Below are positions 38,751 through 61,769 of a DNA stretch of 64,000 nt, one piece after another (the first letter of the stretch is position 1; every line of letters begins with the position of its first letter). The position numbers and the translations under genes were made by a program. The stretch lies in assembly GCA_022508265.1 (NCBI GenBank), contig JAFLVP010000004.1, forward strand, positions 20,372 to 84,371, in the 5' to 3' direction. Origin of the DNA: Clostridiales bacterium. GTDB taxonomy: Bacteria > Bacillota > Clostridia > Christensenellales > Borkfalkiaceae. The notes under the pieces are model-generated. The model saw only the letters and a program-made list of their open reading frames with translations. It was not told where the DNA came from and searched no databases.

Positions 38751-38752
38751 TG

Positions 38753-39559: not shown

Positions 39560-39568
39560 TTCCTCTTT

Positions 39569-40762
39569 TTATTTATATAACTTCGACACGCCCGTTTTAA
39601 CAGCCGCCTCCGCAACCGCCTTTGCAACGGCTTCATGCGCACGCTTATCCCATGCCTTAGGAAGTATGTACTCGAGGGAGAGCTCCTCGTCCGATACACA
39701 GTTTGCAATTCCGCGCGCCGCCGCTATCATCATCTCTTTGTTTACGGTGTTTGCTCTTACGTCCAGCGCACCGCGGAAGAGTCCGGGGAATACCAAAACG
39801 TTGTTTATTTGGTTGGCGTACTCGGACGAGCCCGTGCCCACAATAAATGCTCCCGCCTCCTTTGCGTCGTTGGGATTAATTTCGGGAACGGGGTTGGCGC
39901 AGGTAAACAATATACATTTATCCGCCATTGACGCTACCATTTCTTTGGTTATGCAGTTGGGACCCGAAACGCCTATAAGCACGTCCGCCCCTTTCATTGC
40001 ATCGGCAAGCAAGCCCTGCTTGTGTGATTTGTTGGTAACTTTTGCAATCTCTTTCTGTGCGGGGTTGAGCCAGTCGTTACCTTCGCAGATAATGCCCTTT
40101 CTGTCGCACATGGTTACGTCTTTCACACCGAAAGATATTAAAAATTTGGCAATTGCAATTCCCGCCGCGCCCGCGCCGTTTATAACGAGCTTTATCTCTT
40201 CTATTTTCTTTCCCGCAAGCTTTAAAGCGTTTAAAAGCGCCGCCGCCGAGACGATTGCCGTGCCGTGCTGGTCGTCGTGGAATACGGGAATGTCCAGCTC
40301 CTCCTTTAGCCTCGTCTCTATTTCGAAACAACGGGGCGCGGAGATGTCCTCAAGGTTAATGCCGCCGAAAGAGCCGGAGATTAACTTTATGGTCTTTATG
40401 ATGTCTTCGGTGTCCTTTGAGCCTATGCAGATGGGGAAGGCGTCCACGTCGCCGAACGCCTTAAAGAGAGCGCACTTACCTTCCATTACGGGCATGCCCG
40501 CCTCGGGCCCTATATCGCCAAGCCCCAAAACCGCCGTGCCGTCCGTGATTACGGGTACGGTGTTCCAACGGCGGGTGAGCTCGAAGCTCTTTTCTTTGTC
40601 CGCGTTGATTGCCATGCAAGGCTCGGCAACGCCGGGGGTGTACGCAAGTGACAATTCCTCTCTGTTCCCTACGGGAACGCGGACCTTTGTCTCTATCTTA
40701 CCCTTCCACTCGCCGTGTCTTTTAAGTGATTCCTTTCTGTAATCCATATTTCTTACTTCCAC
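39569..40762 (-). CDS. NAD(P)-dependent malic enzyme
   Basis: LSLAYTPGVAEPCMAI, FHDDQHGTAIVSAAALLNAL, VINGAGAAGIAIAKFL. Confidence 0.95.
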   Translation of the reverse strand: MEVRNMDYRKESLKRHGEWKGKIETKVRVPVGNREELSLAYTPGVAEPCMAINADKEKSFELTRRWNTVPVITDGTAVLGLGDIGPEAGMPVMEGKCALFKAFGDVDAFPICIGSKDTEDIIKTIKLISGSFGGINLEDISAPRCFEIETRLKEELDIPVFHDDQHGTAIVSAAALLNALKLAGKKIEEIKLVINGAGAAGIAIAKFLISFGVKDVTMCDRKGIICEGNDWLNPAQKEIAKVTNKSHKQGLLADAMKGADVLIGVSGPNCITKEMVASMADKCILFTCANPVPEINPNDAKEAGAFIVGTGSSEYANQINNVLVFPGLFRGALDVRANTVNKEMMIAAARGIANCVSDEELSLEYILPKAWDKRAHEAVAKAVAEAAVKTGVSKLYK

Positions 40763-40907
40763 CGTTTGCTTTTCTTATATTTATATTATACACGACGAAA
40801 ACCGCAAAGTAAAATCTTTAATATAAATTTGTGTGAAAGGTTGCTACCTTCCGCGTTTCCGTTTATGTCAAGTATAGCTAATTTTATGCATTTGATATTT
40901 ATAACAA

Positions 40908-40945
40908 AAGGTCTGGCGTTAGTAACGCCAGACCTAAAAAAGTTT
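40908..40945. terminator. intrinsic terminator
   Basis: AGGTCTGGCGTTAGTAACGCCAGACCT followed by A/T runs. Confidence 0.8.
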
Positions 40946-41027
40946 TATCGTATAAAACCCTGTGGGTTTATTTAACTTTTTTATCTTTAAGTGTCGCACT
41001 TAATTTGATAATTGATTTAAATGCTAT

Positions 41028-41435
41028 TTAATACAATATATTTGCGACAATAAAGCTTACAATAAAAATCGAATAACCTAATACAACCCAAAATCTCAGT
41101 TCTTTTTTTAGAGAAAGTAATTGTCGGTCTCCGTTTATATGATCGGTGTTGCAATATCCTAGAAACAAAAAACCAATATTCGAGCACGTGCAAGATATAT
41201 AGTATGCACCCCGAAAAAAATAGTTCGCTTTTTCTACCCAGATTAACGCAAACACATTCCATTTAAACTGCCAAGCTTCTAAATAGACAAGACCGATAGG
41301 TATTACAATGGCCAAAAGGCTTCCGATTACCCAGTATATTATCCACTTGGCGCTCGGTTTTTTTGCTTCTTGGCAATAAACCCCGATATCATCTTTGAAG
41401 ATTTCTTTAAAAAAACAAATCAATCTTTTTAACAT
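41028..41435 (-). CDS. small membrane protein, candidate immunity protein for orphan Rhs tip
   Basis: 135 aa, about 3-4 TM segments; starts 5 nt after the orphan Rhs tip ORF. Confidence 0.5.
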   Translation of the reverse strand: MLKRLICFFKEIFKDDIGVYCQEAKKPSAKWIIYWVIGSLLAIVIPIGLVYLEAWQFKWNVFALIWVEKANYFFRGAYYISCTCSNIGFLFLGYCNTDHINGDRQLLSLKKELRFWVVLGYSIFIVSFIVANILY

Positions 41436-41440
41436 TATCT

Positions 41441-42262
41441 CTAACCCAATAAGATATTTTTAGTCTTTAACCAGAAATAACTTAAAATAGAATCTACACC
41501 CTCAATAAAACTTTCAGACATAATCTCTTTTAAAAATACGCTCATAGTTGTCTTGCGGGTTTCTTTAAATATTGGTTTCAATAATTGGGGACCTACTTTA
41601 CTTGACCCTTTACTTATAAGCTCTCCACCATAAGCAAAGATTGCAGATAAAGCTACATTTTCAACAGTCTCCCATAAAAACTCTTGAGAGGTTCGCGTTT
41701 CTTGTCCAGTAAGTAAGTTTAGCCCATATGTTGTTAAATCTGCAACTAAAGATCCAACAACCGACGACGCAACGGGCCCGCCTATCGTAGCCAAAGCGCC
41801 AGCAACTGCACCACCGACACCAGCTCCGACATAAGTTTGCCACGATGAAAATTTTCCACCATTTAATACGTCGCTGACTAGTTGTCCAAAAAGCCCAGCA
41901 AATAACCCAATAGCAGCTCCCAATAATACCTGAGGAAAATGCCCGTCCGAGTCCGTATTCATTACGGGATTGTTGCCGCAATATGCATATAAGTTAAGTC
42001 CGTTTATTGTTTCGGGGTCGACATATTCAATAGAGTCTATATTTATAAATCTGCCAACTTCGGGGTCATAGTAACGGGTTTTCAGATAGTAGAAGCTCGT
42101 TTCGGTATCGTAGTAGTAGCTTCTGTAACGGAAAGGGTTGGCATTTGGAAGAGGTAAATGATCCGCTCCCGCGGTTATTGTATGGTTGCCCCATGCATTA
42201 TACGAATATTTTACTACAACCTTACCTGCGTTGTCAAGAATGGCTATTACATTGCCCTGCAT
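41441..42262 (-). CDS. orphan Rhs core/toxin-tip fragment
   Basis: FRYRSYYYDTETSFYYLKTRYYDPEVGRFINIDSIEYVDPETINGLNLYAYCGNNPVMNTDSDG followed by a divergent Gly-rich hydrophobic C-terminus; lacks upstream Rhs repeats. Confidence 0.85.
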   Translation of the reverse strand: MQGNVIAILDNAGKVVVKYSYNAWGNHTITAGADHLPLPNANPFRYRSYYYDTETSFYYLKTRYYDPEVGRFINIDSIEYVDPETINGLNLYAYCGNNPVMNTDSDGHFPQVLLGAAIGLFAGLFGQLVSDVLNGGKFSSWQTYVGAGVGGAVAGALATIGGPVASSVVGSLVADLTTYGLNLLTGQETRTSQEFLWETVENVALSAIFAYGGELISKGSSKVGPQLLKPIFKETRKTTMSVFLKEIMSESFIEGVDSILSYFWLKTKNILLG

Positions 42263-42411
42263 GTCATTGCGGGCGTAATACCTTTGTACTGTAAGTAACT
42301 CTCTATTTTATTTAGTAAAAAAAATGGGTTTGAAGAAATACAAACCCATTCATTATACTTGAGAAATTATTGTTGTTTGTAAGTTTTAATGATTTTATAA
42401 GTACCGATAGA

Positions 42412-42765
42412 TTAAAATTTAATATCTTTTAAAAGCGCTTTTTCTATACTTAAAAAAGTATAAGCCATACATATTGGAGTGATAAATGCTAAAATCAAAC
42501 TTAATACTAACATCAAATCAGCTTTGAGCGGTAATATAACATACATATAAATTAAAAGTCCTGCAACACAAATAACGGTAATCGGAACGACCAAACTAAA
42601 GCAGTAGACATAAAATTTAAAACTACCTTTGGCTTTTGAAATATTGTACATACTCGTACCCAATGCTATTGCCCACCCTATTAAAGGAATTAAAGCTAAT
42701 AAAAGCTGCGTTTTAAACTTTATTAATTTTTTCTGCGGCTTAACATCATTTAAATCATTAAACAT
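42412..42765 (-). CDS. small membrane protein, candidate immunity protein for the full-length Rhs
   Basis: 117 aa, about 3 TM; 13 nt downstream of the Rhs stop. Confidence 0.5.
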   Translation of the reverse strand: MFNDLNDVKPQKKLIKFKTQLLLALIPLIGWAIALGTSMYNISKAKGSFKFYVYCFSLVVPITVICVAGLLIYMYVILPLKADLMLVLSLILAFITPICMAYTFLSIEKALLKDIKF

Positions 42766-42778
42766 TTTTAAAACTTCC

Positions 42779-45700
42779 TTACCATAATTTTAGTGTAAAC
42801 ATCAAGCCTATGCCTTTTGCTGCTCCGACTTTTATTTGTCCGTTTTGAATTTTGAACACAAAACCCTCCGAACCCACTAATACTTCCGCATCAAAGTGTT
42901 CTGTATATGCACCAATTGTAAGCACCGTAGTCATAAATTCTACACCTATTCCGTCTGCTATATCGATACCACATGACGCTGATAAAGTTCCCACTTTCAG
43001 TCCCAAATAACCATTATCATCAACATTGTATCTTCCCTCAAATAAACTAAGATTGGCATCAATAAATGTAACACCCGTTGTTTTTACTGTAAGGACTTGC
43101 ATCGAGCCACTAATTGCTCTTGCTTCAAAATGCGATAAGAAGCGTTCGCCTAAATAAGCAAGATCGTTGCCTAAGTTGTTGAAACCGCTTAAATATCGCC
43201 TTTTAGGTGTATATCTTCCGCTATATAATAGTGCCCATTCAAATGAAAATAATGAAAAAATGTTTACATCGAAACTACTTTTGGGAGCAGTACCATTTTC
43301 ATCTTTATAAATTATAGGATTATTGCCACAATATGCATATAAGTTAAGTCCGTTTATAATTTCAGGATCGGCATATTGAATTGAGTCTATATTTATAAAT
43401 CTGCCTACTTCGGGGTCGTAATATCTTGTCTTTAAGTAATATAATCCCGTTTCAGTATCGTAGTAGTAGCTTCTGTAACGGAACGGGTTGGCATTTGCAA
43501 GAGGTAAGTACTTATCTTCTGCGATTATACTATGATTGCCCCAGGCATCGTAGCGATATTCTACCACCATATTGTCATTTGTGTCAAGTATAGCTACAAT
43601 ATTGCCCTGTATATCTTTACAGTAAGTATAATATTCGCCGAGATAGTTTATCCCAACTAAACCATAATGGTCATAGAAAAATTCTAAGCCGTTGCTCTGC
43701 TTTTTGAGTCTGCCCGCACTGTCGTAAGTAAACTTTATATCGTTTTTCTTTGTTCTCAATCCAAACGCGTCATACTCAAACGTAGTTCCGTTGTAACTTG
43801 CAAGCAGTCTGCCACGCGTCCACTCTGCGGGATTTCCACGGTAAATTACAGGATTTCCTACTTTATCATATTCGCACTCCTCGTTATTATACGATATCAG
43901 TCTGCCATTGTCATATTCTAATATTTTTTTGCTTTTTATTATGGGTGACCCGTTAAAAGTATATATAGATTCTTCTTTTAAAGTGATATTTCCGTTATTG
44001 TCATATGTGAAGAAATAACTCTTATCAAAATCTTTATTATCCTCCCTTACAAGTCGGTCTAACGCATCATAGGTATATTTTGCAACGAGTTCTCCGTTTC
44101 TCTCTATCGTGCTTATATTGCCGTGAGCATCGTAAGTATAATATAACGTCCTGCTGGTAGAGTTATAGCTTCTGTAGTTAAAACGGCCGGGTAAATTTGT
44201 AGCGTTATCCCCGAACTTTAAATAAGTTACGCGTTCTTCCGGATTATCCATGTTTGCGCAATACACGGTTCTGCCCAAGTATCTTCCGTTTGCATCCGTT
44301 TTATACTTTATTTTGAAAGGACCCGTTATTGCTGTCGTTATGTTTTCATTAAATTCGTCATGCTCATAAATGCAACCGTTGTCATAACTCAAAAGCCCTG
44401 CAATATCGTAACAATAGCTTTCTGCGTCCTGCCATTCTCCGTTTATAAATGTGTGTACAGAAAGCAGATTTCCGTACGAATCGTACTTAAGCTGTTTTTC
44501 CGCGCCCGTTAAATAATCTTTTTCGGTTTCCGTGCAAGTATCGAAATCGTAATGGCTTTCATAAATAAGCTCGCCGTTATAATATATCTTTTTAAAGCTC
44601 TGCGCCTTATCGGCCACCGCCTTAAACTTTTCGCCGTTTGCGTTGATGCGCGTTATTTTGTCCACCTTTATATCGTCTTCAATAACGTTATCCTCATACA
44701 GATAACTTTCGTATAGCTCATTATTCAAATATATTTTGCTTATCCGACGCTTTTTGTCATACTCATACGTTATGGGGATATTTCCGCTGTGATTAAATTC
44801 CGAAATCTCGTCTATGCTATATTCGGTTGAATTAGCGTTTTCCACACTGCCAATTGCTGCCGACATTTTAGTTACCCGATCACGATTATCGTATGTATAA
44901 AAATACTTACCGCCCTTGGGCATTGTGATTTTGTTAATCAACTCCGTATCGCCCGAGTATGCGTATTCTACGGAATTTAAACCGGTTTCGTCCTTTACTC
45001 CTATAATACGGTGCAAGCTGTCATACGATGTTTCGGAAATAAATGTTTCGTTGTCCTCCGAGCCGTTCACAGAGCCCGTCACAGATTTCTTTATCAAATC
45101 ACCACTTTCGCTATAAGTGTAAGTTTCCGTTTTTGTTTTGGAACTTTTTCCATTAAATTTTCTGGTTTGGACTTCCGCTACGGAACTTGAATTGCCTACA
45201 TATTTATATCTGGTTTCGCAGATTAATACCGCGTTATCGTAATTTTCCTTTTCGTCGATGCGTGCAACGCGGTGTTCGTCGTCATAGGTATACGTTTGTT
45301 CTATATTCTTTGTTCTCCCTCCTGCAAGTCTGATATTCTGTGTCTTAGAAGAGGAAACCGCATTATAGTTATCGAGCTTTATGGTGTTAATTTCATCTTC
45401 TATAAATTCGAACTCATCCAGCGGCTTTTTGTTTAAAGTATTTACATGGGATTTGTATGTTGTGTAGCCTTCATACGCAATGTACTCGTACTTTTCCGCC
45501 GCCACAACTCTATTTGCCGATACTGCAAAATATTCGCACTTTTCGCCTTTGTCGTTAAATACATATATCGATTTATTCTCGTCGGAATCGGTAATAATCG
45601 TGCGGCTTTCGGAGTAATCAAAATCCAGCTTTGAAAGTTCGGTTTTTAAGCTTGTCCCTTCGGGCACTTTGCTTAACATAGAATATTCCGTGATTGTTTT

Positions 45701-47989
45701 TACTCCACCGTAATTGGGCGACATATCATTATACACAATTTCGCTTTTATATCCGTCGGAGTCTATTACAGCCGATACTCTTTTGCTAAGAATGTTGTCA
45801 TAATCTAAATTTACCGTCTTGCCGTTGAAAGAAATACTGCCAAGCTGGCGCGGGTAGCCGGTCAGATAGTTAAATTTAATTACTCGGCCGCGCTGGTCCG
45901 TGATTGACGTTAAAAATATATTGTCGTAATCGAATATTATTTCTTTACCGTTGCAATCGGTTATCTTTGAAATGCTACCGTAAGTATCATATGAAATGGT
46001 AAAATAATTACCGAATTCGTCGTTGACCATTACCATTTCGCCGTATTTATTAAATCCTTTTGTCAAACCGTTACCTTTAAGCCATAAAACGGGCTTGGAT
46101 GTTGCATTTTTGTAATATTCACTGTTGGAAACAACTTCGGTAGGATTTGAAAGCAAAAACTGATTTCCTGCAGCCTGGTATTCGATAGTGACGGGATTCT
46201 TGTTAAATAAAAGAGTATTTGTTTTTGAGTCAAAAACAAATTTATTTTCATCATTAACATCGTCTTCATTTAAATAGTACTTCTTACCGTCGGTTATGCA
46301 ATAAAGTACCATATTCAACTCGTGTGCATTGCCCGCGGCGTCAGTATAGGCATACTTTTTTATGTGTTCGTTTGTATCATCGGCGCAAACGAGTTTTTCG
46401 TGCAAATTTATTCTGAAATTGTTTCCGTAAGAGTTATATACCGAATTGTCGTCGTATATATGGGAAATTCCATAGCCGAGAAGCGCCTTATCGGAAGGTA
46501 TATCGTTTATTATAAAAGTTGCTTTTCCGTCGTATAAGTCAACACTGAGTTGCGTATTACCGACAAGGGGGAATTCTTTTACTGTTTTTTGCGCTCCCGA
46601 GGGAACTGCACGTGATAAAAATATTATAGGCGCCAAAGTCCCGTTAACACAGAATTCGTACGAATTGTCGCAGTAGGTAAAAATCAATTCAATATCTTTA
46701 TCGTCCAAAGCGTCTACAACTCCGATATCCACATACACGGTGTTTAACTTTTCTGGCTTGCGGTAACGCTTGCCGTTTACACAAAATTCTGTAGGTTGCG
46801 CCATTTTTGTATCCGTAAACAACTGCATTTTTAGATTTACAGACTCAAAATTACCAAAGTCTATATCTTTTTTACGAATTTTTACTACCGTTCGCGTTTG
46901 TTTACCACCCGACATATTGAAGTAAATTCTTCCATAGCCAATTGTTTTCCAGTTAAGTCCGTTTGTGCTTTCCTGTATTTCCGCCGAAGGCGCTATACGC
47001 TGACCGTAAATATTTACTATTACCTGCGTAGATAAGTGCTTATACGTTATTGTAACTGTCTTATTGGTTACAGTCATATCGCTGTTTGCCAGTGTATAGT
47101 CCGTTAAAATCTTTTCCTCGCCGTCGTAGTAAACCTTTTTTACCACCATTCCCGTCGGGTTAAAGGTGTCCCCGCTCAAATAGCTCATTTTAGTCGGCAT
47201 AGTTTCAACGTAAATATATTTCGGACCAACAGTAATAGGCAAGTCATATGAAACACCTTGATAAGTTATGGTAATAAATTTATCTTCTATCTCCAGTCCG
47301 CGTTTAGGATAAAAATCGTATTCTAATATTTCGTTAACTAGGCCGTCTTCAGAACATACCAAAACCGTCATCCCCGTACTGTCAAATATTTCCCCTTCTT
47401 TATAGAACATCTTGTCGGGATTGTTTGCAATTTTTAAGCTGCTTATTTGAAAAATATTCGAACAAGTGCCGCTATAAATAGCGCATTTCTGCAAATCAAG
47501 TGCTTCTATTCCATCCCACTTTGCTTTAAATATAAAATCGGCGCTTCCGGTCTGTGCAAATATTTCGTCCAACTGTACTTCATAATGCTTGTTGTCCGGA
47601 TAAGAGTAGTGATAATTTCCTATAAACACTTCATCTGTTGCAGAATAAATTGAAAAAAGTGTATGAAACATTCTGGAAGTGCCATAAAAGCTCAAAACGG
47701 CGTTCTGCCCAAAATCGGCTACAACTTTATCGTAATTGACTTTTACCTTGAACCAGTCATTATATTCTAACCCGATTCCGTCACCGCTATAGGGTTGTCC
47801 GTTGAATTCTACAATCTCAAAGTATTCGTTTGGATACCCGTCTGCACTCTCTCCGCTGCTGACCCGCACGGCCGCGACTTCTTCCGTAATAGTATTTTTG
47901 TCCTCTTGCTCCGCCGACTTTTCCGTCAACGGTTCACTGTTTTCAGCCTGCAATTTTGCAACAAGTTCTTGAATTTTTTTGTTTTTCAT
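42779..47989 (-). CDS. RHS/YD-repeat polymorphic toxin-like protein with Ig-like N-terminal region and variable C-terminal tip
   Basis: Track ORF starts 48106; SD-supported ATG (AAGGAGAAAAAATG) at 47989, MKNKKIQELVAKLQ; many YDxxGN/YD repeats; core RYRSYYYDTETGLYYLKTRYYDPEVGRFINIDSIQYADPEIINGLNLYAYCGNNP. Confidence 0.92.
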   Translation of the reverse strand: MKNKKIQELVAKLQAENSEPLTEKSAEQEDKNTITEEVAAVRVSSGESADGYPNEYFEIVEFNGQPYSGDGIGLEYNDWFKVKVNYDKVVADFGQNAVLSFYGTSRMFHTLFSIYSATDEVFIGNYHYSYPDNKHYEVQLDEIFAQTGSADFIFKAKWDGIEALDLQKCAIYSGTCSNIFQISSLKIANNPDKMFYKEGEIFDSTGMTVLVCSEDGLVNEILEYDFYPKRGLEIEDKFITITYQGVSYDLPITVGPKYIYVETMPTKMSYLSGDTFNPTGMVVKKVYYDGEEKILTDYTLANSDMTVTNKTVTITYKHLSTQVIVNIYGQRIAPSAEIQESTNGLNWKTIGYGRIYFNMSGGKQTRTVVKIRKKDIDFGNFESVNLKMQLFTDTKMAQPTEFCVNGKRYRKPEKLNTVYVDIGVVDALDDKDIELIFTYCDNSYEFCVNGTLAPIIFLSRAVPSGAQKTVKEFPLVGNTQLSVDLYDGKATFIINDIPSDKALLGYGISHIYDDNSVYNSYGNNFRINLHEKLVCADDTNEHIKKYAYTDAAGNAHELNMVLYCITDGKKYYLNEDDVNDENKFVFDSKTNTLLFNKNPVTIEYQAAGNQFLLSNPTEVVSNSEYYKNATSKPVLWLKGNGLTKGFNKYGEMVMVNDEFGNYFTISYDTYGSISKITDCNGKEIIFDYDNIFLTSITDQRGRVIKFNYLTGYPRQLGSISFNGKTVNLDYDNILSKRVSAVIDSDGYKSEIVYNDMSPNYGGVKTITEYSMLSKVPEGTSLKTELSKLDFDYSESRTIITDSDENKSIYVFNDKGEKCEYFAVSANRVVAAEKYEYIAYEGYTTYKSHVNTLNKKPLDEFEFIEDEINTIKLDNYNAVSSSKTQNIRLAGGRTKNIEQTYTYDDEHRVARIDEKENYDNAVLICETRYKYVGNSSSVAEVQTRKFNGKSSKTKTETYTYSESGDLIKKSVTGSVNGSEDNETFISETSYDSLHRIIGVKDETGLNSVEYAYSGDTELINKITMPKGGKYFYTYDNRDRVTKMSAAIGSVENANSTEYSIDEISEFNHSGNIPITYEYDKKRRISKIYLNNELYESYLYEDNVIEDDIKVDKITRINANGEKFKAVADKAQSFKKIYYNGELIYESHYDFDTCTETEKDYLTGAEKQLKYDSYGNLLSVHTFINGEWQDAESYCYDIAGLLSYDNGCIYEHDEFNENITTAITGPFKIKYKTDANGRYLGRTVYCANMDNPEERVTYLKFGDNATNLPGRFNYRSYNSTSRTLYYTYDAHGNISTIERNGELVAKYTYDALDRLVREDNKDFDKSYFFTYDNNGNITLKEESIYTFNGSPIIKSKKILEYDNGRLISYNNEECEYDKVGNPVIYRGNPAEWTRGRLLASYNGTTFEYDAFGLRTKKNDIKFTYDSAGRLKKQSNGLEFFYDHYGLVGINYLGEYYTYCKDIQGNIVAILDTNDNMVVEYRYDAWGNHSIIAEDKYLPLANANPFRYRSYYYDTETGLYYLKTRYYDPEVGRFINIDSIQYADPEIINGLNLYAYCGNNPIIYKDENGTAPKSSFDVNIFSLFSFEWALLYSGRYTPKRRYLSGFNNLGNDLAYLGERFLSHFEARAISGSMQVLTVKTTGVTFIDANLSLFEGRYNVDDNGYLGLKVGTLSASCGIDIADGIGVEFMTTVLTIGAYTEHFDAEVLVGSEGFVFKIQNGQIKVGAAKGIGLMFTLKLW

Positions 47990-48176
47990 TTTTTCTCCTT
48001 TTGTCTGCCGTCTTAAAATCCCTGCTTGCGCGCCATCCGCCCCCGCCACACGAACTTTGCGCTGCGCAAAAATTTTTACGCAAACATATGTTTTTTGTGG
48101 CCGCATTATATATTACGTTTTCGGCAAAGTCAATACTTTAATCACATATATTTTTTAATTTTTTACAAACAAAAAA

Positions 48177-48206
48177 ACGAGTTCGGTACAATACGAACTC
48201 GTTCAC
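48177..48206. terminator. intrinsic terminator-like hairpin
   Basis: AACGAGTTCG gtacaata CGAACTCGTT. Confidence 0.65.
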
Positions 48207-48501
48207 AAAAGCAAGAAGTTTGCGGCACAAATACCGTTTGACAACTCGCGCTTTAAGTAATATTATTTTCAAATTTAAAGGACGGGTGCTTGCTCTTCTT
48301 TAAATTCGGCAAGCCGGGCGATAACTTCTGGCACAATATCACTTACAACAGAGCATAGCAAAACATTGCGGTTTTTCGGTGCCCGAGGCAAGACTTGTAA
48401 GGATATGAGCGAAGCGAACGACAGAATAGCGTATTGCTACTTTTGTTTTGCAAAAGACAAGCGTGTTACTGTGCACGGCGAGCGGGTGAATGCCGACCGA
48501 G

Positions 48502-48531
48502 AAAAAAACGACAACACTTGCATGTTGTCGT
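48502..48531 (-). terminator. terminator immediately downstream of the tRNA-Leu 3' fragment
   Basis: minus strand ACGACAACA tgcaag TGTTGTCGT TTTTTT, adjacent to the CCA end. Confidence 0.85.
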
Positions 48532-48587
48532 TGGTGCCGCTGGCCGGACTTGAACCGGCACGGAGTCTCCTCCGAGGGATTTTAAGG
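48532..48587 (-). tRNA. truncated tRNA-Leu(UAA) 3' fragment, probable attachment (att) site scar
   Basis: minus strand CCTTAAAATCCCTCGGAGGAGACTCCGTGCCGGTTCAAGTCCGGCCAGCGGCACCA: anticodon loop, variable arm, T arm, acceptor 3' strand and CCA present; D arm and 5' acceptor absent upstream. Confidence 0.85.
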
Positions 48588-48976
48588 CGTATTGCTAAAA
48601 TTTTAAGAAGAAAAAACCCCGATTTTGAGGCGTTTTTGGGCTAAAAACCCCTCAAAATAACCAATTACCCAATGGTTCACGTGTTCTTGATTTTTTGATT
48701 CCCATTTTTTCCCAAGACTTAACATTGAAGAAATCGACCAATAGGACGATTTTTCTCCGTAAAGTACTGGTTTTAGTCCGTATTTTGCATATAAATCAAC
48801 TAAAAATATGCAACTGACAGCTTAATTCCAAACCAAAAAATGTAACAAATTCGCACCCTTGTTAAAAGTTTTCATTCTATCGGCAAAAAAATGAAAGCAT
48901 TATTATTCGAATACTAATATTTTCGCCTTTAACGGAAGACATTTAACATAATTTTGAACCACTATACTCCAAAACA

Positions 48977-49015
48977 AATAATCCCCGGCGGCGTTTACCG
49001 TCGGGGATTATTGAA
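48977..49015 (-). terminator. intrinsic terminator of CoiA-like gene
   Basis: AATAATCCCCGgcGGcgtttaCCGTCGGGGATTATT. Confidence 0.8.
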
Positions 49016-49042
49016 TTCGAACGCACTAAAATTACTGTTCCT

Positions 49043-49735
49043 CTAATCGTAATCCTTTATATTCAAATTCGCAAAAACAGTATTTATGTCTACAGCATTA
49101 TCAGAATATGCCTTTAAATATTTGTTGTAAAATGTTTGCTTGTTCTTCCAACTACAGAATAACTTCCCTTCGTGTAGCCAAATTCGTAACATTGTATTTT
49201 TGTTGGGTGAAATATCTAAATACACTTTGGTATTATTTTTCCTAAGTATATCAATTGCCCATTTTTTAGGATATTTCCAATACAATTCCCACTGATTTTT
49301 ATCTTTTTTAGTTCCTATTTCTAAATGTTTTTTTCTACTAGCACCATAACAATTTACAATCCAGATAACCCTGGTTCCTGTTAATGCATTATAAAATTCA
49401 GTCCTCTCTATCGCATCTGTTAAAGAAATCGAACTATATTGTAACTCAATAACATATTCTGGCGTTTTAATATCTGCTCTATGCTCATTGTTGAATCCAC
49501 TAATTACTTCACAATATTCGTCTTTGACCAGTGACTTCCATACTATATGCCACTCCGTCTCATTTTCATACCCCTTTGGTAAAACCGGACAATCGTCAAC
49601 ATACCTCCAATATTGTAAGTAATCACCTTTGCATGCTTTTAATGTATAATTTTTGAACCAACAATCTTGCCCCAAAGAACCTTTTACCGCATCCTTAATA
49701 TGTACTTTTTTACCGTTCTGTAAAGCAAATCTCAT
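49043..49735 (-). CDS. competence CoiA-like nuclease family protein
   Basis: TEWHIVWKSLVKD...NNEHRADIKTPEYVIELQYSSISLTDAIERTEFYNAL, the CoiA-type HRAD..IExQ core. Confidence 0.75.
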   Translation of the reverse strand: MRFALQNGKKVHIKDAVKGSLGQDCWFKNYTLKACKGDYLQYWRYVDDCPVLPKGYENETEWHIVWKSLVKDEYCEVISGFNNEHRADIKTPEYVIELQYSSISLTDAIERTEFYNALTGTRVIWIVNCYGASRKKHLEIGTKKDKNQWELYWKYPKKWAIDILRKNNTKVYLDISPNKNTMLRIWLHEGKLFCSWKNKQTFYNKYLKAYSDNAVDINTVFANLNIKDYD

Positions 49736-49907
49736 ATATAAAAACCTTTATTCTACAGAATAGCTCCTCCCTGATTTCAAAATATACCATTTAACAAAAT
49801 TCTTTCTCGCGCTCAAAAAGATAATCGCGCATATAAATTTGAAGATCACTAGTTTTTTACAATCCAAAACCGCATAACTTGAATTAACAAAGTACTTTGA
49901 TTATTTG

Positions 49908-50585
49908 TTATATTAATGCAGAAACATCCTTCTTGTTTTTATGAAAATTATTCAAATTTAATAAGATAATTATTACTTTTGTTAAGTCATATTCCATTTG
50001 GACTATATTTAAATTTTTAACTTCATAATCAATAGAATCATTATTATTTTTTAAAACATATGTTCCTTCTTTTAATGTTTCAAGTGGGTGTTTTTCATTA
50101 ATTTTTATTAAATAGTTTCTTTTATTCTTCTTAATTTTACCCTTATTATTTATAAAAGGATATCTAAAATAAGTGGCACCCACATCAATTTTATCCAATT
50201 TTTTAATTGTCGATTTAAGTTTTTTTATTTCTTTCTTATTGTAATCTGTAAGTAATTTACAGCTTTCTAAATAAATATAAAAATTTATTAAGCTTAAAAG
50301 TGAATGGGTATTAATTAACTTTCTACTCAGAGAAATTCCGTTTTCATTTAAAACCTCTATATCTTTAATATTTTTATAATTCAAATAAGGGTTTCCACTT
50401 ACATCGTAAAGTATTAGAGATTTTAGAAGTAACTCAACCGTATGCCTCTCAATAAATATTAACGGGGATATTAAAAATTGATCATCCTCATATCTAATAC
50501 TTGAGAATCTAATATCGTCTCCACATAGGGCAAATCTTACCGCTTCTTGATAAAATAATTTACTTGTTTTTAAAATTTCATCCAT
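49908..50585 (-). CDS. hypothetical helical protein, weakly HEPN-like
   Basis: RHTVELLLKSLILYDV...INTHSLLSLINFYIYL pattern; 63 nt downstream of the receiver gene in the same orientation. Confidence 0.55.
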   Translation of the reverse strand: MDEILKTSKLFYQEAVRFALCGDDIRFSSIRYEDDQFLISPLIFIERHTVELLLKSLILYDVSGNPYLNYKNIKDIEVLNENGISLSRKLINTHSLLSLINFYIYLESCKLLTDYNKKEIKKLKSTIKKLDKIDVGATYFRYPFINNKGKIKKNKRNYLIKINEKHPLETLKEGTYVLKNNNDSIDYEVKNLNIVQMEYDLTKVIIILLNLNNFHKNKKDVSALI

Positions 50586-50648
50586 ACTAATTATTAATTT
50601 GAAAAATTTTTAATTAAATGAAAATTCACGATGTGCAAACTAAGTACA

Positions 50649-51638
50649 TTATTTAAGTGTTTTATAGATTTCATCTAAGTAATTATAAGTTTCGTAAATA
50701 TTCTTTCTTATATCATCACATTCTTCTTTTGTGTATTTTTCTCTACAGTTGTCACAGTTACAATTTAAATCTGCTATGGTTTTAGATATTTTTATGTGAT
50801 TCTTATACCTTTGGCCATATAAAAGTTTTGCATGTGCTAATTTGTTTCTGGGTTTTATTATATTTTTGTCATAATTGTTCGTGGATTCTTCAACAAATTT
50901 AAGCTCTTTTTTATTAATTAATGAATAAATCAAACTAAAGATATAAAACTTATTACGAACAGACATAACATATTCTTGAGAGTCCATTGCCGCTTTGATT
51001 AAGTTTATTCCTGTTTTTTTGTTAACATCCTTAAATTTTGATTGCTCATTTTCATTTTGTTCTCCAATGAAATTTTTAATTTGATATATAACTTTTTTTT
51101 GATCTACCTCGTCCAAGTTTTCAAAAAAAGAAATAGTATAATTTTTAATTATAAAATCAAAATCAGAAGTACTATCCATCAGATAGCCACGAATACTAGA
51201 TATTCTCATTTTTAGATTAATTTGTTTTTCAATTATATAAGTAAATTTACGAATAAATTCTTCACGAGAATTATCGGAGAAAACTACCCCATCAAGCTCT
51301 GCTGGCATTAATGATTTTTTTAACTCCTCTATGTTCCCAGAATAAAATAAAATATCTGTAAATATCCCTTTCTCGCGAATTATTTTAATTAAATCTTTAC
51401 CGTTTAATTTAGAATGTGACAAATTAAAATCCACTAAAATTAAATCAAAATCAGAAAAATCTTCTGCACTATATTTTTCAAGAATTTCTTTTTCAAAACT
51501 CTTGATACTAGTATATATCTTATCTGCTCCTACTAACTTTAAGCAACGGCTTGTAACAACATCCTCTACCAATTTTATGTGAACATCAATCTCATCAGGT
51601 TCATCTTCTATCCAAATTATTTTATATTCTTGTCTCAT
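50649..51638 (-). CDS. atypical response-regulator receiver fused to a C-terminal HEPN-like domain
   Basis: YKIIWIEDEPDEIDV, DFDLILVDFNLS, DILFYSGN receiver motifs; C-terminal IIKPRNKLAHAKL (R-x4-H) between helices. Confidence 0.75.
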   Translation of the reverse strand: MRQEYKIIWIEDEPDEIDVHIKLVEDVVTSRCLKLVGADKIYTSIKSFEKEILEKYSAEDFSDFDLILVDFNLSHSKLNGKDLIKIIREKGIFTDILFYSGNIEELKKSLMPAELDGVVFSDNSREEFIRKFTYIIEKQINLKMRISSIRGYLMDSTSDFDFIIKNYTISFFENLDEVDQKKVIYQIKNFIGEQNENEQSKFKDVNKKTGINLIKAAMDSQEYVMSVRNKFYIFSLIYSLINKKELKFVEESTNNYDKNIIKPRNKLAHAKLLYGQRYKNHIKISKTIADLNCNCDNCREKYTKEECDDIRKNIYETYNYLDEIYKTLK

Positions 51639-53802
51639 GAATTTTTACCTCGAGCGTTATTCCGCTTTCTTCGTTATCGTATATGTCGACTTCTCCATTC
51701 ATCTTGCGGCAGATTAAATCTTGGATTTGGTATAGGCCCACTCCAGTGCCTGCCGCAGAAAAATTTGGATTGTCTTTGTTTGAATACCCAAATTCAAATA
51801 GCTGATCTTTATCAACGGCTTTAGGCAGATTTTCTCCGTCGTTTATAAATTTAATTATTAATAGCCCATCACAATTATTAAAAGTGACATGTAATGACTT
51901 TGATTGAGCTTTTTGTGCGTTAGAAAAAATATTTTCAATCATGACCGTTAGGTCTTGAGGGGGAAATGATATGGAACAAGCTATTGGGTCATCAACGACG
52001 CAGATAATCGGTGAATACGAATCCGCAACAACACTTTCTATATATTCTTTTATAAATTCGGTAATGTTACCTTCTAAACGCTTATTCTCTAGTTCGTATG
52101 CTGCCCTATTATAATATTTAACTGCGGTCAAAATTTTATTGCTTGCTAATGTTATGTTTTTAACTTCCTTGTACTCTTTACATTCTTCATGATTTCTTAA
52201 AAGCAACAATACATTATTACTAATTCTGCCTGCATTATTTTTTATTACATGAGTATTATAAGCACGTGTTATAGAATCCTCAGATAATTGCTCTTGTAAA
52301 AAATAATTTTGTTTGCGAGTGGCTTGGGCATTTCTTTCGGCCGCAAGTCTTGCCAATCGCTCTGCTTCCGCACGTTTTTCTGCCGCTTTCCTTAATTCTT
52401 CTTCTCTTCTCCTTTTTTCTTCTTCTTGCTCCTTAAGAAAATTGGTGTAATCCGTGGTTGCTTTCCTAATTTTTTGACCGATTTCATTCCTCTTTTTAAA
52501 AAGCGAATTAATTATTGGATCAACTAAAGAAATAAGTAGCTCAACTCTTTCATCTTCTAAAAAGTCCTGTCGGCTTGATGTCGCAATATCAGGCAAATCA
52601 TCATCATCTAATATATCAAAACTTATTTCCCCTTCAATATAGTCAGCCATAGTTTGAGTACTGCGACGCATATCAAAATAGTTTGATACTGCTAGTTTTT
52701 TTCTTACATATAAACGTAGTCTGTTGGGTTGATAAATATTATTTCTTAAAAAATTCTTATCTAATGCATTTTTTTGTTCAATAGTACTGTGTATTCCTAT
52801 CCAGCCCACTAAGCTGTATTTTTTCTTTACTAATTCCCCGTTTTCATCATGAAAATAATCTTCGCCACTTGTAATAAAGTTATCCTTATTTAAGCATATG
52901 GTAGGGTGCATTTCATTAGCTATATGAGGAAAAGTTGATAGCCATTTAAAAGCTATCTCTTCCGACAATAATGATTCTATATTCTTTTCGCTATTATTAA
53001 AAATTGAATAGAAATTTTTAAATGCAATATTTTTGGTGACTTTTTCAAAAGTGACTGATTGGTTTCCTTGTGTTTTTACAGCCACCCAGATATTTGAATT
53101 TAACGCATCCAACAAATAGTAGTCTGAAAAAGTTCTCTTTAAACCTTCTATGCGTTGTGTTCCTGTTCTTCGCAAATCAACATTTTCAAGCTTAATCGCT
53201 GTTCCATGTTCAAATTGCTGCCATATCACATCGTTAATTAATTGTTTGTCGTATTTTAAGCGATCTAATTTAGGAAAATCAGAATTTCTGTATGCAGCAA
53301 CATTAAGCATCCATCTATTTTCATTTTGCTCATTATATTTACGTGAAAAGATATAGTATTTATCAGTTAAAAATAGTGCTGCAAGCTTACCAATTCCTTT
53401 TCTTCCCATTACGCTTTCTTTACTTTCTGCAGTTAATAACTCGTCACTTCTTTTATTTCTGCCGATCCATACATATTTTTCTGCTAGATCGTCATAACTC
53501 ATTCCTGACCCATTATCAATTATTTCGATATTTGCATGCTCTTTATCTGTTAAATCTATATAGACATATATTTCGGTTGCTTTAGCATCTATTCCATTTG
53601 CAACAAGTTCTGAAATCGCCATTAATGGATTATTATAAAGATTCTTTCCCAAAAGCTTTAAAGCAGTATAAGAAAAATTAAAATAAATAGCATCCTGTGT
53701 GTTTCTCGATGTAGCTAGTTTCTTTTCTGCTTCAAGTGTTTCTCTATTTGCTGCATCTCTTTGCTCTGATAGAGCTTTTAAAATATCCGTATTATTGCTC
53801 AT
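51622..53802 (-). CDS. double GHKL ATPase: MORC/Hsp90-like N-terminal HATPase, Lys/Arg/Glu-rich coiled coil, histidine-kinase-like C-terminal HATPase
   Basis: N-term NPLMAISELVANGIDAKATEIYVYI, IIDNGSGM, GRKGIGKLA; C-term MIENIFSNAQKAQSKSL, FINDGENLP, GTGVGLYQIQDLI. Confidence 0.85.
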   Translation of the reverse strand: MSNNTDILKALSEQRDAANRETLEAEKKLATSRNTQDAIYFNFSYTALKLLGKNLYNNPLMAISELVANGIDAKATEIYVYIDLTDKEHANIEIIDNGSGMSYDDLAEKYVWIGRNKRSDELLTAESKESVMGRKGIGKLAALFLTDKYYIFSRKYNEQNENRWMLNVAAYRNSDFPKLDRLKYDKQLINDVIWQQFEHGTAIKLENVDLRRTGTQRIEGLKRTFSDYYLLDALNSNIWVAVKTQGNQSVTFEKVTKNIAFKNFYSIFNNSEKNIESLLSEEIAFKWLSTFPHIANEMHPTICLNKDNFITSGEDYFHDENGELVKKKYSLVGWIGIHSTIEQKNALDKNFLRNNIYQPNRLRLYVRKKLAVSNYFDMRRSTQTMADYIEGEISFDILDDDDLPDIATSSRQDFLEDERVELLISLVDPIINSLFKKRNEIGQKIRKATTDYTNFLKEQEEEKRRREEELRKAAEKRAEAERLARLAAERNAQATRKQNYFLQEQLSEDSITRAYNTHVIKNNAGRISNNVLLLLRNHEECKEYKEVKNITLASNKILTAVKYYNRAAYELENKRLEGNITEFIKEYIESVVADSYSPIICVVDDPIACSISFPPQDLTVMIENIFSNAQKAQSKSLHVTFNNCDGLLIIKFINDGENLPKAVDKDQLFEFGYSNKDNPNFSAAGTGVGLYQIQDLICRKMNGEVDIYDNEESGITLEVKIHETRI

Positions 53803-55023
53803 TTAATGGCCCTCCAATATTCTACTTAAATTTTCTGCAATAGCTAATGCCAAAAGAGGTGGCACAGCGTTTCCAATTTGCCTGTTGACTTCTGTTCTGT
53901 TGCCTTCAAATTTAAACCAATCTGGGAATGATTGAATTCTTGCTCCCTCTCTCGATGTAAGGGCTCTATTTTGTGAATAATGAATGCACCTTAAACTTGA
54001 AGGTGTTGATAAATTATTCGTTATAGTAGTTGAGGGTTCATTTTCGACTAATCTCCCATAGGTATTAGCATATCCCGATGTCAATCTATACTTTTCATCA
54101 ACAATACCTTCATCAACTAAAGCATTAAAATCATTTTTTCCCTGCCCTTGTTTAACATTTTTAATTACTGTTCGTATTTTATCCCCATATTTCCCACAGC
54201 TATGTAGGGTCAGGGTATCACATCCACCTCTCATAAGCTGCTGATATTTATTTTGACAAGGAATATTGTATTTTTTTATTTGCTTTCCTTCTCTGACTAA
54301 AGGTAGATCACCTATAGCATCTTTTATCGTTAAGTGGTACCCTAATATTGGTTGTGGGAATTGCCAAACAATATTTAAATCTTTTCTTATGCCGATAATA
54401 AACACTCTTTCTCGACTTTGCGGAACACCAAAATCACCAGCGTTTAATACTTTATGTTCTATCCTGTAACCAATCTCATCAAACTGTTTTTTTAATTTAT
54501 CCATTATAAAATCACCATACCCTATAATTTTGGGTACTTTTTTTGTAATGGTTTTACCGTTTCTTTTGGCCTCTTTTTCGTAGTATTTTATTTTACCGTG
54601 TTCATCTAATTCATAAAAGATTTCTTTCATTGAAAGAATTCCTTTAACATTCTCAAACAAAAACATTTGAGGTTTTATAATATTTAAAACACGGAGGTAT
54701 TCTTGATATAATTTAGCTTTATCATCATACCTCCTCTTCCCAACCGTACTAAACGATTGGCAGGGCGGTCCACCTATAATTAGATCAACTTTTTGCCCAT
54801 TTAACGACCTGCGAATTTTATTTCTATTTAATTTTTTAATATCGATGGCTTGCATATCTATATCATTAAAATTCGCACGGAATGCTTCTGCCGCAAAATC
54901 ATCAAACTCATTAGCAAACAAAATTTGATTATTTAAATTTTTTACAAAGGCACCGTTAACTAATTTATAATAAAAACCAAATGTTAACCCACCGGCACCA
55001 GAAAACAAATCTACAATTCTCAT
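53803..55023 (-). CDS. dcm: DNA (cytosine-5-)-methyltransferase
   Basis: DLFSGAGGLTFGF, GGPPCQSFSTVGKRR, LFENVKG, PQSRERVFIIG, REGARIQSFPDWF, RQIGNAVPP. Confidence 0.96.
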   Translation of the reverse strand: MRIVDLFSGAGGLTFGFYYKLVNGAFVKNLNNQILFANEFDDFAAEAFRANFNDIDMQAIDIKKLNRNKIRRSLNGQKVDLIIGGPPCQSFSTVGKRRYDDKAKLYQEYLRVLNIIKPQMFLFENVKGILSMKEIFYELDEHGKIKYYEKEAKRNGKTITKKVPKIIGYGDFIMDKLKKQFDEIGYRIEHKVLNAGDFGVPQSRERVFIIGIRKDLNIVWQFPQPILGYHLTIKDAIGDLPLVREGKQIKKYNIPCQNKYQQLMRGGCDTLTLHSCGKYGDKIRTVIKNVKQGQGKNDFNALVDEGIVDEKYRLTSGYANTYGRLVENEPSTTITNNLSTPSSLRCIHYSQNRALTSREGARIQSFPDWFKFEGNRTEVNRQIGNAVPPLLALAIAENLSRILEGH

Positions 55024-55027
55024 TTGA

Positions 55028-58000
55028 TTACCCTAATAATTTATTTGTTTTAGATAAAAATTTGGCCGGTATTTTATTCTCTAATTTCCACAGCACATTC
55101 ATAGGTTTACTGCCTTCATGCCCTACATAATGTGCTTTACCTAGAAATATAAATGCTTGCGCCCCATACTGATCTGATTTCACCTCTCTTACAAAAAGCA
55201 AAATCGTATTACTCATCGAATCGTGGTTAATATATCTATGTCCGGTAGGTGATATATCTGATGTGGTGCTCTGACTTTGCCAATGGAAGATAGTTTCATT
55301 TATTGAATAATCATTGTATGCTGTTGTGGGAGAATAGAAGTTGTCTGATTTATTTAATGTAATAAAAAACAAATCAGTGTTCTTTTCTTTTAGATATTTA
55401 ACTCCTTCAGAAACTGAGTAATCTTCTTGAAAACCTAACGCAGCAAGAGCCTGTGAACGTGTATATGTACAGTAAACTTCTAGAGGGCAAATGTAATCCA
55501 AATTAGATTTTTGCCCAACAATATCTATATTTTCTTTGCATAAACTCATTATATCTTTGACTTCATCAATAAAATACTCATCTTCAAACAAAGTGTTTAA
55601 TGCTTCAACTTCATCATTAAAACCTTCTGTTATAGGTGTTTTATTCCAAATCGATGAGTAAAGCATCTTAATCATTAGCTTATCTTCGTCGTTATAATCA
55701 CTAAGTACTTTAAATTTTTTCCGAGACAATTCCGATAAAATGAAGTCGATCCATTTTTTAGAATCAACATAACAAAAGTGAAATAATATTCTTGCAGGAT
55801 CCGCAAAGATATGCTTTTTAGCTGGCCATAATCCTGCTTGTTCACACATCGAGTAGAAAGCCCATTTCTTGCTATAAATTAACTTTGCATCCACATGATA
55901 AAACCGGGCAAAATTTATTAATGAAAGATTTAAACCGCTATCTTCAACAAATGTTTTAATTTTAACTAATAACCAGTTTTTTGAATTTAACGATGCACGA
56001 ATGTTTTCTAAAATATACTCTTTTGATTTCTTTTCAAGTTGAATATAGCATCCCTTGGGCGCAGATACAAAGCCATTTTTAATTTCACTCAAAACACTGC
56101 CATTAAAGTGCGAGAGAAGTGCCTCGAACTTGCTCTCAAAATTGTAATTTTTGTTTGCTTGTCCTATAAAGTCCAGAACAGTTAAACATTCTTTACCTTC
56201 ACATAAACGCAAACCGCGTCCGAGCTGCTGCAAAAAGATTGTCAGTGATTCTGTAGGTCTTAGGAACAAAACAGTATTTATCTCAGGAATATCCACACCC
56301 TCGTTGTAGATGTCAACAACAAAAATAAATCTAATATCCCCATTTATAAGTCTTTGCTTAGCCGCTCTACGCTCCTCATCTGATGTCTCGCTAACTAAGA
56401 ACATTGAAGGTATATTGTGTTCGTTGAAATAGTCTGACATATATTTTGCGTGCTCTTTTGAAACACAGAACCCTAAACCCTTCACAGCATCTAAATCTGT
56501 CACATATTTCAAAAGTGACTGAATGATTAAATTGGCACGTCTATTAGACACCGCCTCACTAAAAGCATAAACATTAGTTAATTCAGACTTGCTGTATCCT
56601 CCTCTTTCCCATTTAAGAGAATCGAGATCCACCGTATCGGTTACTCCAAAATATTGGAAGGGACACAGTAGTTTTCTATCTATCGCCTCTGGTAGCCGTA
56701 TTTCAGCTGAGATACGGTTATTAAAATATTCAAGTATGCTTTTTCCATCCATTCGTTCAGGCGTTGCGGTCAACCCAAGTAATATCTTAGGCTTATAATA
56801 TGTAAGAAGTTTTTGATATGTCAGTGCCGCCGCATGATGGAATTCATCAACGATAATATAGTCGTAATAGCCGGGGGAAGTAATTTTAGTTAAATCCTGT
56901 GAATTGAAAGTCTGCACAGAAACAAACAGGTTTTCAAGACTGTCAGTTTTATAGGAACCAACAAACAAATTACCAAAATTGGCATCCTTAAGTACTCCCC
57001 TAAAACAAGCTATACTCTGCTTTAAAATTTCTTCTCTATGAGCCACGAAAAGAAGTTTTGCTTGCCTGTTCTTCTTTATAAAATCTTTAAAATCAAGCGC
57101 AGATATAACCGTCTTACCAGTACCTGTAGCTGCGACAACAAGATTTTTATAATTCCCTCTGACCTCTCTTTCGGCTCTCAGTTTATCAAGAATTTCTTGC
57201 TGATAAGGATATGGTGTAATATCAAATGTATAGGTATTTTCGCTATTGCCGTCAAAGTACTTTTCTGCTTTTAATGCACGCTCTAACCTTTGCTTGTCCA
57301 CATAAGAATAAATCTCAAAATCATCTGAGTTCCAATAACTATCAAAGGTTGCAGAAATCTTTTTAATTGTATCGGGCAAGTCCTGTTTTGTTACTTTTAC
57401 ATTCCATTCGAGCCCACTTGAAATTGCCGCATTAGACAGATTAGACGAACCAACATATGCCGTAGTGAAGTCTGTATCTCTGTAAAATACATAAGTCTTG
57501 GCATGAAGTCGAGTGCGTTTCGTATCATAAGATACCTTTACTTCCGTATTGGGTAGCTTGCTGAGTTCGTCAACAGCTTTTATATCTGTTGCACCCATAT
57601 AAGATGTCGTAATTATTCTAAGTTTGCCGCCTTTACTTGTAAAGGCTTTGAGCTCATCTATGATTAGTCTAAGTCCGCTCCACTTGATAAACGAAACAAG
57701 CATATCAATACGGTTACACGAAATTATTTCCTTCTTGAGCTCTGTATACATTTGCGGTTCGTGAATTGCGCCTGTAAACAATGAGCTTTGAGAAAGTGAT
57801 GTTACGGGCCGCACAATCTCAGCCTTCTCATTTAAACCATAAATGGTATTAGTTTTATCAAGCAAAGCAAGTAGCTGTTCCGCTCTTTTGTCCACTTCCA
57901 TTCCTATAAAGTCCGAATCGGAAGTTTCAACTTTTACTGTGCTTACCAACTTGTTGACAAGTGAAATTTGCGACTCAATACCGCCACCGTTGTCAATCAG

Positions 58001-58183: not shown

Positions 58184-58364
58184 GGCTTATACCGTTTTCT
58201 TTGCACAGCTGTTCAAACCTATGCTTTACAAGGTTTTGAGGTTTACTTTTTCCGTTCTCCCAGCGGTTGACCGTTGCGAAAGATACATCAAGTTTCCTCG
58301 CTAGCATCTCTTGACTGAGGTTTAATTTCATTCTAACTTCAAGGCAGCATTTTGAAAAATCCAT
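58167..58364 (-). CDS. XRE-family controller-like regulator
   Basis: LNLSQEMLARKLDVSFATVNRWENGKSKPQNLVKHRFEQL; likely ATG at 58364 (track ORF start 58376 is TTG). Confidence 0.85.
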   Translation of the reverse strand: MDFSKCCLEVRMKLNLSQEMLARKLDVSFATVNRWENGKSKPQNLVKHRFEQLCKENGISLEGEN

Positions 58365-58384
58365 AAATATCACCAAATAATTTT

Positions 58385-58424
58385 GTTATAACAAATTATA
58401 ACATACCAATTTGGTAAATGTCAA
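58385..58424 (-). promoter_or_regulatory. promoter with two palindromes upstream of the defence operon
   Basis: minus TTGACA - 18 nt - TATAAT; spacer palindrome TACCAA-N-TTGGTA (58404-58416); GTTATAA-CAAA-TTATAAC (58385-58402). Confidence 0.8.
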
Positions 58425-58613
58425 TATTTGATGAGTAATAAAACTGCTACTTGGACGGATTTTCCGCTTTCTTCTGTATATGTAAAAATGGTCGAAAATA
58501 CAACAGTCATACCTTTAAAAATTAAGACGATTTTCTAAAAGGCATTGTTACAAAATTCGACAAATTTTTTGCTTTGAATTTTTGTCTCCCTACTCCTCAT
58601 TGATAAATAGCAT

Positions 58614-58646
58614 AAGCGGCGCAACCATTATCGCTGCGCCGCTTCA
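58614..58646 (-). terminator. intrinsic terminator
   Basis: AAGCGGCGCaaccattatcGCTGCGCCGCTT. Confidence 0.75.
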
Positions 58647-59393: not shown

Positions 59394-59448
59394 AATATCA
59401 CTCCTGCAACATAAGTAGTTTATCATTGACAAAACAAATTGGTCAAGC

Positions 59449-59518: not shown

Positions 59519-59531
59519 AGGAGGATAGATT

Positions 59532-61762: not shown

Positions 61763-61769
61763 AGACACA

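Follow-up and report, generated by a model that had tools for sequence, protein, structure and literature searches.

Our analysis of a 64,000-nucleotide stretch of DNA from a Clostridiales bacterium (hereafter the window) makes it highly probable that half of a tRNA-Leu(UAA) gene at 48532-48586 on the minus strand is attR, the right-hand junction of an integrated element of about 18 kb that is not phage-like, that splits tRNA-Leu(UAA) and that brings a whole spare copy with it. The window belongs to contig C34 of a MAG of 1.55 Mb (94% complete, 43 contigs), and its right end is the end of that contig. Below we describe the half gene and its uninterrupted counterpart in a sister species, the genes carried by the element, and the complete elements in related genomes from which we derive a mechanism of integration.

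A tRNA-Leu(UAA) gene broken in the anticodon loop

Read on the minus strand from 48586 to 48532, the dead 3' half has the sequence CTTAAAA-TCCCT-CGGAGGAGACTCCG-T-GCCGG-TTCAAGT-CCGGC-CAGCGGC-A-CCA, which takes in the loop (positions 32-38) and the 3' strand of the anticodon stem, then a long variable arm and the T arm, and finally the 3' strand of the acceptor stem with CCA. The assignment rests on alignment and stem pairing: the variable and T stems pair perfectly (z -3.35), and the best match to an intact tRNA-Leu gene of the same genus has an E-value of 1.9e-14, which excludes a chance resemblance to tRNA-Leu. When 16 intact tRNA-Leu genes from relatives are aligned with the fragment, identity sets in exactly at C32, the relatives having AAGGGA-CTTAAAA-TCCCT and the window AATACGC-CTTAAAA-TCCCT. 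A first, sequence-only reading of this DNA had described a piece that runs from the anticodon loop to CCA and is broken within that loop, which holds, but had given its length as 56 nt; the half gene comprises 55 nt, and position 48587 already belongs to the arm of the element. As that reading also stated, the 5' partner of the anticodon stem and the D arm are missing, and no 5' half of tRNA-Leu was found in the window or elsewhere in the MAG.

Directly after CCA lies an intrinsic terminator with an 11-bp stem and a T run (48507-48532, minus strand; hairpin detection), and the 85-nt unit made up of the tRNA 3' half and this terminator occurs once in the genome. ARAGORN detected no complete tRNA in the window, and no other tRNA-Leu(UAA) was found in the 94%-complete assembly. 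The 7-nt loop CTTAAAA (48580-48586, minus strand) is the presumed recombination core common to both ends of such elements: identity with the intact genes begins here, and the dead 5' halves of relatives end in the same 7 nt. On the element side it is adjoined by the attachment-site arm TAGCAATACGC (48587-48597, minus strand), of the class '..GC|CTTAAAA' that is also present in 10 other genomes. The 11-mer GCGTATTGCTA of this arm (48587, plus strand) recurs at 48429, 158 bp away on the chromosomal side, and this second copy is possibly an integrase-binding site or due to chance.

A group I intron in tRNA-Leu(UAA) was considered as the cause of the interruption and rejected. Group I introns are expected to end in a terminal G before the 3' exon; here the 3' exon lacks a preceding terminal G, and neither a group I intron nor any other Rfam family matched at the fragment. 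A stray copy of part of the tRNA gene, or an assembly misjoin at a short repeat, would mark no element boundary at all and has to be weighed in a MAG of 43 contigs from which the integrase end is missing. However, the same '..GC|CTTAAAATCCC' junction is found in 11 genomes including that of the window, four of the others having nearly identical foreign DNA next to it, and the locus is uninterrupted in a sister species, which leaves very little room for such an origin.

The locus is uninterrupted in a sister species

In related genomes the tRNA genes stand in the order Val, Gly, Cys, Leu(UAA), and contig C9 of our MAG begins inside tRNA-Cys, with tRNA-Gly and tRNA-Val behind it. In the sister species G074, the left flank of the window and C9 are neighbours, and the 1.35 kb between them contain one intact tRNA-Leu(UAA). 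Window positions 38751-40887 are 92% identical to G074 at the nucleotide level, and many further genes match at about 50-99% amino acid identity back to base 1, so that 1-40887 represents a collinear chromosomal flank (malic enzyme, SDR, NUDIX and further genes); from its first base, C9 matches at 90% over 4.1 kb and at 85% over 4.6 kb. Since the two flanks are joined through one intact tRNA in G074, the DNA from 48588 to at least 64000 was inserted at that tRNA. The empty site that the sequence-only reading had proposed to look for in sister genomes is thus present in G074, and its view of the fragment as an attachment-site scar at the boundary of an integrated element is borne out, as is its placement of that element to the right, where the DNA is foreign.

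The same reading had let the AT content rise from 48.59 kb. The shift is real (GC 0.479 for 1-40887, 0.377 for 40888-48501 and 0.324 for 48588-58400), but AT-rich DNA begins earlier, at 40.9 kb, where homology to G074 ends. Between the malic enzyme gene and the fragment lies a 7.6-kb, AT-rich block (40888-48501; PF05593) that is absent from G074 and encodes an RHS/YD-repeat protein of 1775 aa alongside small ORFs; in its place G074 has 1.1 kb with an HTH gene. Being AT-rich and missing from the sister genome, this block could itself be taken for the insertion, with the tRNA fragment as its edge. We consider this highly improbable: the tRNA lacks its 5' half, which makes the break face right, it is the right side that holds the backbone genes of tRNA-Leu elements, and the search for an older attachment scar near 40.9 kb yielded no second tRNA fragment. 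The RHS block is possibly an older, separate insertion.

The hairpin and U-run after CCA had been read as the native chromosomal flank. Stem and T run are present as described, but their nativeness is uncertain, as the terminator of G074 is unrelated, its 3' half is 85% identical and the segment 40.9-48.5 kb is absent there. With a 3' flank unlike that of G074, the half gene at 48532-48586 may have been displaced from the tRNA of an earlier element and not from the original host gene. The genes trmN6 and rsmI, adopted from genome G001 as conserved downstream neighbours, proved misleading, trmN6 being far from tRNA-Leu in the other genomes checked.

The element carries restriction-type cargo and a shared backbone

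The distal part of the element (48588-64000), absent from G074 and cut off by the contig end, is foreign and AT-rich (GC 0.32-0.38) and measures no less than 15.4 kb. Defence genes had been noted here in the sequence-only reading, and restriction-like genes are indeed present. The cargo nearest to the junction lies on the minus strand and encodes a CoiA-like nuclease-domain protein (49043-49735; PF06054, E = 4.3e-6), a 225-aa protein with no match in Pfam, PADLOC or PHROGs (49908-50585), a response-regulator-like protein (50649-51638; PF00072, E = 7e-4, below the cut-off), a GHKL/HATPase protein with two ATPase domains (51622-53802; PF13589 and PF02518; PADLOC REase_II, E = 3e-23), a C5-cytosine DNA methyltransferase (53803-55023; PF00145, E = 2e-68; PADLOC MTase_II) and a restriction-type protein that combines PLD nuclease, helicase and DUF3427 (55028-58183; PF04851, PF13091 and PF11907; PADLOC type IV restriction model mREase_IV, E = 5e-223). 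Within 49043-58183, the methyltransferase, double-ATPase GHKL, response-regulator-like and PLD/helicase/DUF3427 genes form an operon-like restriction-type module, for which no complete PADLOC system was matched by name.

Further to the right are two small HTH regulators (58167-58376, minus strand, PF01381, E = 7e-12; 59532-59765, plus strand, PF01381, E = 3e-7), an undecaprenyl-diphosphate-synthase-like (UppS-like) gene that sits inside the mobile element (59838-60656, minus strand; PF01255, E = 4e-38), a gene for a Sigma70 region-4-like protein (60701-61762, plus strand; PF04545), a gene for a 356-aa protein without profile match (61806-62876, minus strand) and the start of a gene cut by the contig end (63592-64000, plus strand). 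The Sigma70 region-4-like gene and the truncated gene are backbone genes. Homologues of the former occupy the corresponding position in the elements that G104 and G111 have at tRNA-Leu (71-73% amino acid and 73-74% nucleotide identity), and the latter, at about 68% amino acid identity, has a homologue in G111 just inside a TnpV-like gene and the integrase. These last two genes of the window keep the order and orientation that they have in the G104 and G111 elements (69-74% nucleotide identity), and those elements, too, are bounded by a tRNA-Leu 3' half of this kind.

Among the visible cargo of the element, which is incomplete here, searches with Pfam, PADLOC and PHROGs recognised no phage structural genes, and no relaxase was seen either in this part or among the profiled genes of the G111 element, whose ORFs were profiled in part. 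Only two PF00589 integrases were found in the MAG, both on other contigs (C21 and C31), and neither matches the integrase family found beside tRNA-Leu in relatives.

Complete elements in relatives split the host gene and carry a whole tRNA

The sequence-only reading had placed an intact tRNA-Leu and the integrase beyond 64 kb. Neither is in the window, whose right end is the contig end, and it is the relatives that suggest such a location. What did not survive is the model implied there, in which an intact tRNA shares this 3' sequence and the host gene is restored, for relatives with the same backbone keep a split host gene and a whole, different tRNA-Leu. At attL of G111, the dead host 5' half (GCTTGTG...AAGGGA-CTTAAAA) is followed after about 60 nt by an uninterrupted tRNA-Leu(UAA) gene, behind which come a terminator and the gene of a tyrosine integrase; attR, about 20 kb away on the same contig, holds the 3' half, whose acceptor strand CACAAGC is complementary. 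In G104 a single contig spans an element of the same layout, 19.5 kb in length and complete, with the same dead halves GCTTGTG and CACAAGC, and in both genomes the spare tRNA-Leu(UAA) differs from the host gene (GCCCGAG.../...CTCGGGC). In G080 the dead halves have GCCGCTG and CAGCGGC and the intact gene has GCTTCCG/CGGAAGC. In all three genomes, the dead 5' and 3' halves complement each other and not the intact gene; covariation of the acceptor stem by mutation after integration was dropped as an explanation when the spare tRNAs turned out to be whole genes. Identity between element and target is confined to the 7-nt loop CTTAAAA, which relatives have at both ends, and the tyrosine integrase (PF14659 and PF00589) is encoded adjacent to the attachment site. 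Four species (G103, G104, G105 and G111) have element parts beside the fragment that are mostly 93-99% identical in amino acid sequence, and the chromosomal side differs; such near-identical ends are as expected of recently moving DNA.

Under the usual rule for tRNA-targeting elements (PMC8371274), the element would carry a tRNA 3' half, the host gene would be rebuilt at the other end, and 48532-48586 would be the displaced 3' half. G069, in which 2.3 kb separate an intact gene from a 3' half nearly identical to it and no clean dead 5' half is present, speaks for this arrangement, and G069, G032 and G103, which have an intact gene and a fragment with the same acceptor strand but no clear dead 5' half, fit it as well as they fit a spare tRNA. 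Yet the elements that share the window's backbone, those of G104 and G111, come with a whole tRNA and with a dead host 5' half, and in them, as in G080, the dead halves pair with each other and not with the intact gene. We therefore regard a rebuilt host gene as unlikely in the window and favour the delivery of a whole spare tRNA.

A second class of tRNA-Leu 3' fragments retains AAGGGA before the loop and lacks the D arm (G028, G015, a second copy in G104, and G081; L175:2986, L070, L163 and L158). This class may reflect another integrase subfamily with a different arm sequence.

Proposed mechanism of integration

We propose that a tyrosine integrase recombines the anticodon loop of the host, AGGGA-CTTAAAA-TCCCT, with a site on the element that has no more than CTTAAAA in common with it and lies between element arms. 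The predicted attB is thus AGGGA-CTTAAAA-TCCCT and the predicted attP ..GCAATACGC-CTTAAAA-.., and the integrase putatively carries out recombination at CTTAAAA. The arms at the left end of G450 (GCATATGCGTC) and at the right end of G099 (GACGCATATGC) are reverse complements of each other; as they come from different genera, this is no more than a hint at an attP core that forms an inverted repeat around CTTAAAA. Integration would cut the host tRNA-Leu(UAA) into two dead halves, with the 3' half at 48532-48586 and the 5' half expected after the tRNA-Cys of C9. The cell would survive thanks to a complete tRNA-Leu(UAA) that the element brings along; placed some 60 nt in from the left end, this gene could be transcribed from the host tRNA promoter. 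A promoter scan found no sigma-70-like promoter in the leader region of G111, and for this reason the spare tRNA is probably expressed from the host promoter; it is putatively charged and required for the survival of the integrant. The integrase gene would lie next to the spare tRNA in convergent orientation, and the spare tRNA, with the same anticodon loop, would offer a target to the next element and so give rise to nested insertions.

The junction in the window shares with those of relatives its arm class, the geometry of the 3' half and the backbone genes, and by analogy its own left end should have the same layout. Because the homologue of the window's last gene in G104 lies 2.7 kb from the left end, the integrase, the spare tRNA-Leu, the leader and a dead 5' half GCCGCTG... 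are expected about 2.7 kb past the contig end. This 5' half would read GCCGCTG..AGGGACTTAAAA and stand beside the tRNA-Cys of C9.

Frequency, nesting and isoacceptor agreement

The junction of a dead 5' half, about 60 nt and tRNA-Leu(UAA) occurs in 21 of the 94 genomes of the genus, with a reversed-pattern control giving 0. A search across the order for the exact UAA junction gave 3 positive genomes out of 396, including one from another genus of the same family, so that the junction looks clade-restricted at the strictness of this pattern. Intact tRNA-Leu genes lie within about 320 bp at 20 of 33 loci of the integrase family, 14 of these 20 also having a dead 5' half; the 33 loci come from named GTDB genomes, nearly all of which are titled as MAGs, most being labelled as uncultured Clostridia and several coming from rabbit gut by isolate name.

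In G030, G111 and G031, two dead 5' halves stand in series before the intact gene, and these represent insertions into the spare tRNA of a previous element. Integrase C-terminal remnants of 55 codons, 89-91% identical, lie 3' of tRNA-Leu fragments at L125:17242-17406 (G030:C4) and L127:11783-11947 (G028:C25) and appear to be fossils of overwritten elements. Two tRNA-Leu(UAA)-like genes are arranged in tandem near an integrase at L243:5309-5395, and at L207:298-384 (G075:C57) there is a tRNA-Leu with a GCCGCTG acceptor strand and its own sigma70-like promoter, which is perhaps the ancestral gene.

A corresponding UAG version, in which tRNA-Leu(UAG) is the target, the core is CTTAGAA and the spare tRNA is Leu(UAG), was found in five genomes. 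Wherever the second tRNA was read, the spare is of the same isoacceptor type as the broken one, be it UAA or UAG. This agreement, which was not imposed by the search pattern, is in our view the best functional argument for the putative replacement by a spare tRNA. Elements of the UAG type, with core and spare tRNA as above, are seen at L231 (1235-1800) and L254-L259; at L231 the adjoining integrase is of the same family (70% identical), and a sigma70-like promoter was read by eye upstream of the dead host half.

Relation to known integrative elements

As a general rule, integration re-creates an intact tRNA gene at one of the junctions (PMC8371274; PMC4383910). Classical islands (Islander, PMC4383910; Williams 2002, cited via PMC8371274) resemble the elements studied here in their tyrosine integrase, tRNA target, crossover in the anticodon loop and displaced 3' fragment that marks the far end, the last of which is seen at 48532-48586. 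According to the same sources, however, their intact gene consists of the host 5' half and the element 3' half, whereas here the whole gene comes from the element: in G104 and G111 there is no such hybrid, the host 5' half being a separate dead piece, and in relatives a complete tRNA of the same isotype is present on the element (UAA in 21 genomes, UAG in 5).

The closest precedent is the tRNA-dependent lysogeny of the actinobacteriophages Fionnbharth, LeBron and Gaia, in which the host tRNA is not rebuilt and a cognate tRNA is carried (Guerrero-Bustamante & Hatfull, 2024, PMC10865867); a tyrosine integrase and an unrestored host tRNA are common to both systems, and Gaia uses tRNA-Leu. The Lactobacillus johnsonii prophage Lj965, mentioned in that article as a likely case, is similar in that the tRNA is not rebuilt and a cognate tRNA is on the prophage, but it is a prophage and a single case, with no nesting described in the lines that the article devotes to it. 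In contrast to these lysogens, the carriers studied here look like mobilizable or defence islands in which no phage structural genes were seen, and their hosts are uncultured gut Clostridia. Moreover, the spare tRNA lies about 60 nt inside attL, where it would make use of the host tRNA promoter, and it would be re-used as the next target, which leads to nested arrays.

In G001 and G030, an integrase and a MobL relaxase (PF18555) stand beside tRNA-Leu, as in integrative mobilizable elements with MobL relaxases, whereas the backbone in the window resembles the G104/G111 type with its TnpV-like and Sigma70 region-4-like genes. No earlier report of the nested form was found in the literature searched, which lay mostly outside subscription journals. 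The mechanism itself has been known from phages since 2024; new here would be tRNA-dependent integration by elements that are not phages, that carry defence genes and that provide, in their spare tRNA, the target of the next insertion.

Implications for the turnover of an essential tRNA

Elements that target tRNA genes are normally described as repairing the gene that they enter, and the gut-bacterial family described here appears instead to break an essential tRNA and to replace it whole. We lean, with somewhat better than even confidence, towards the view that in this clade the essential tRNA-Leu(UAA) has passed from the chromosome to mobile elements, each of which kills the resident copy and installs its own as the next landing site, so that the working tRNA, with changing acceptor stem and variable arm, turns over with the elements. 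The spare-tRNA mechanism would explain stacks of half tRNA genes, and the variety of acceptor stems seen for a single tRNA within the genus may be a record of mobile-DNA turnover. Because only 7 nt are shared between element and target, tools that seek long attachment repeats would miss such elements. If this view is true, a cell whose dead host halves have decayed would die on losing the element, which would amount to an addiction of the cell by means of a tRNA.
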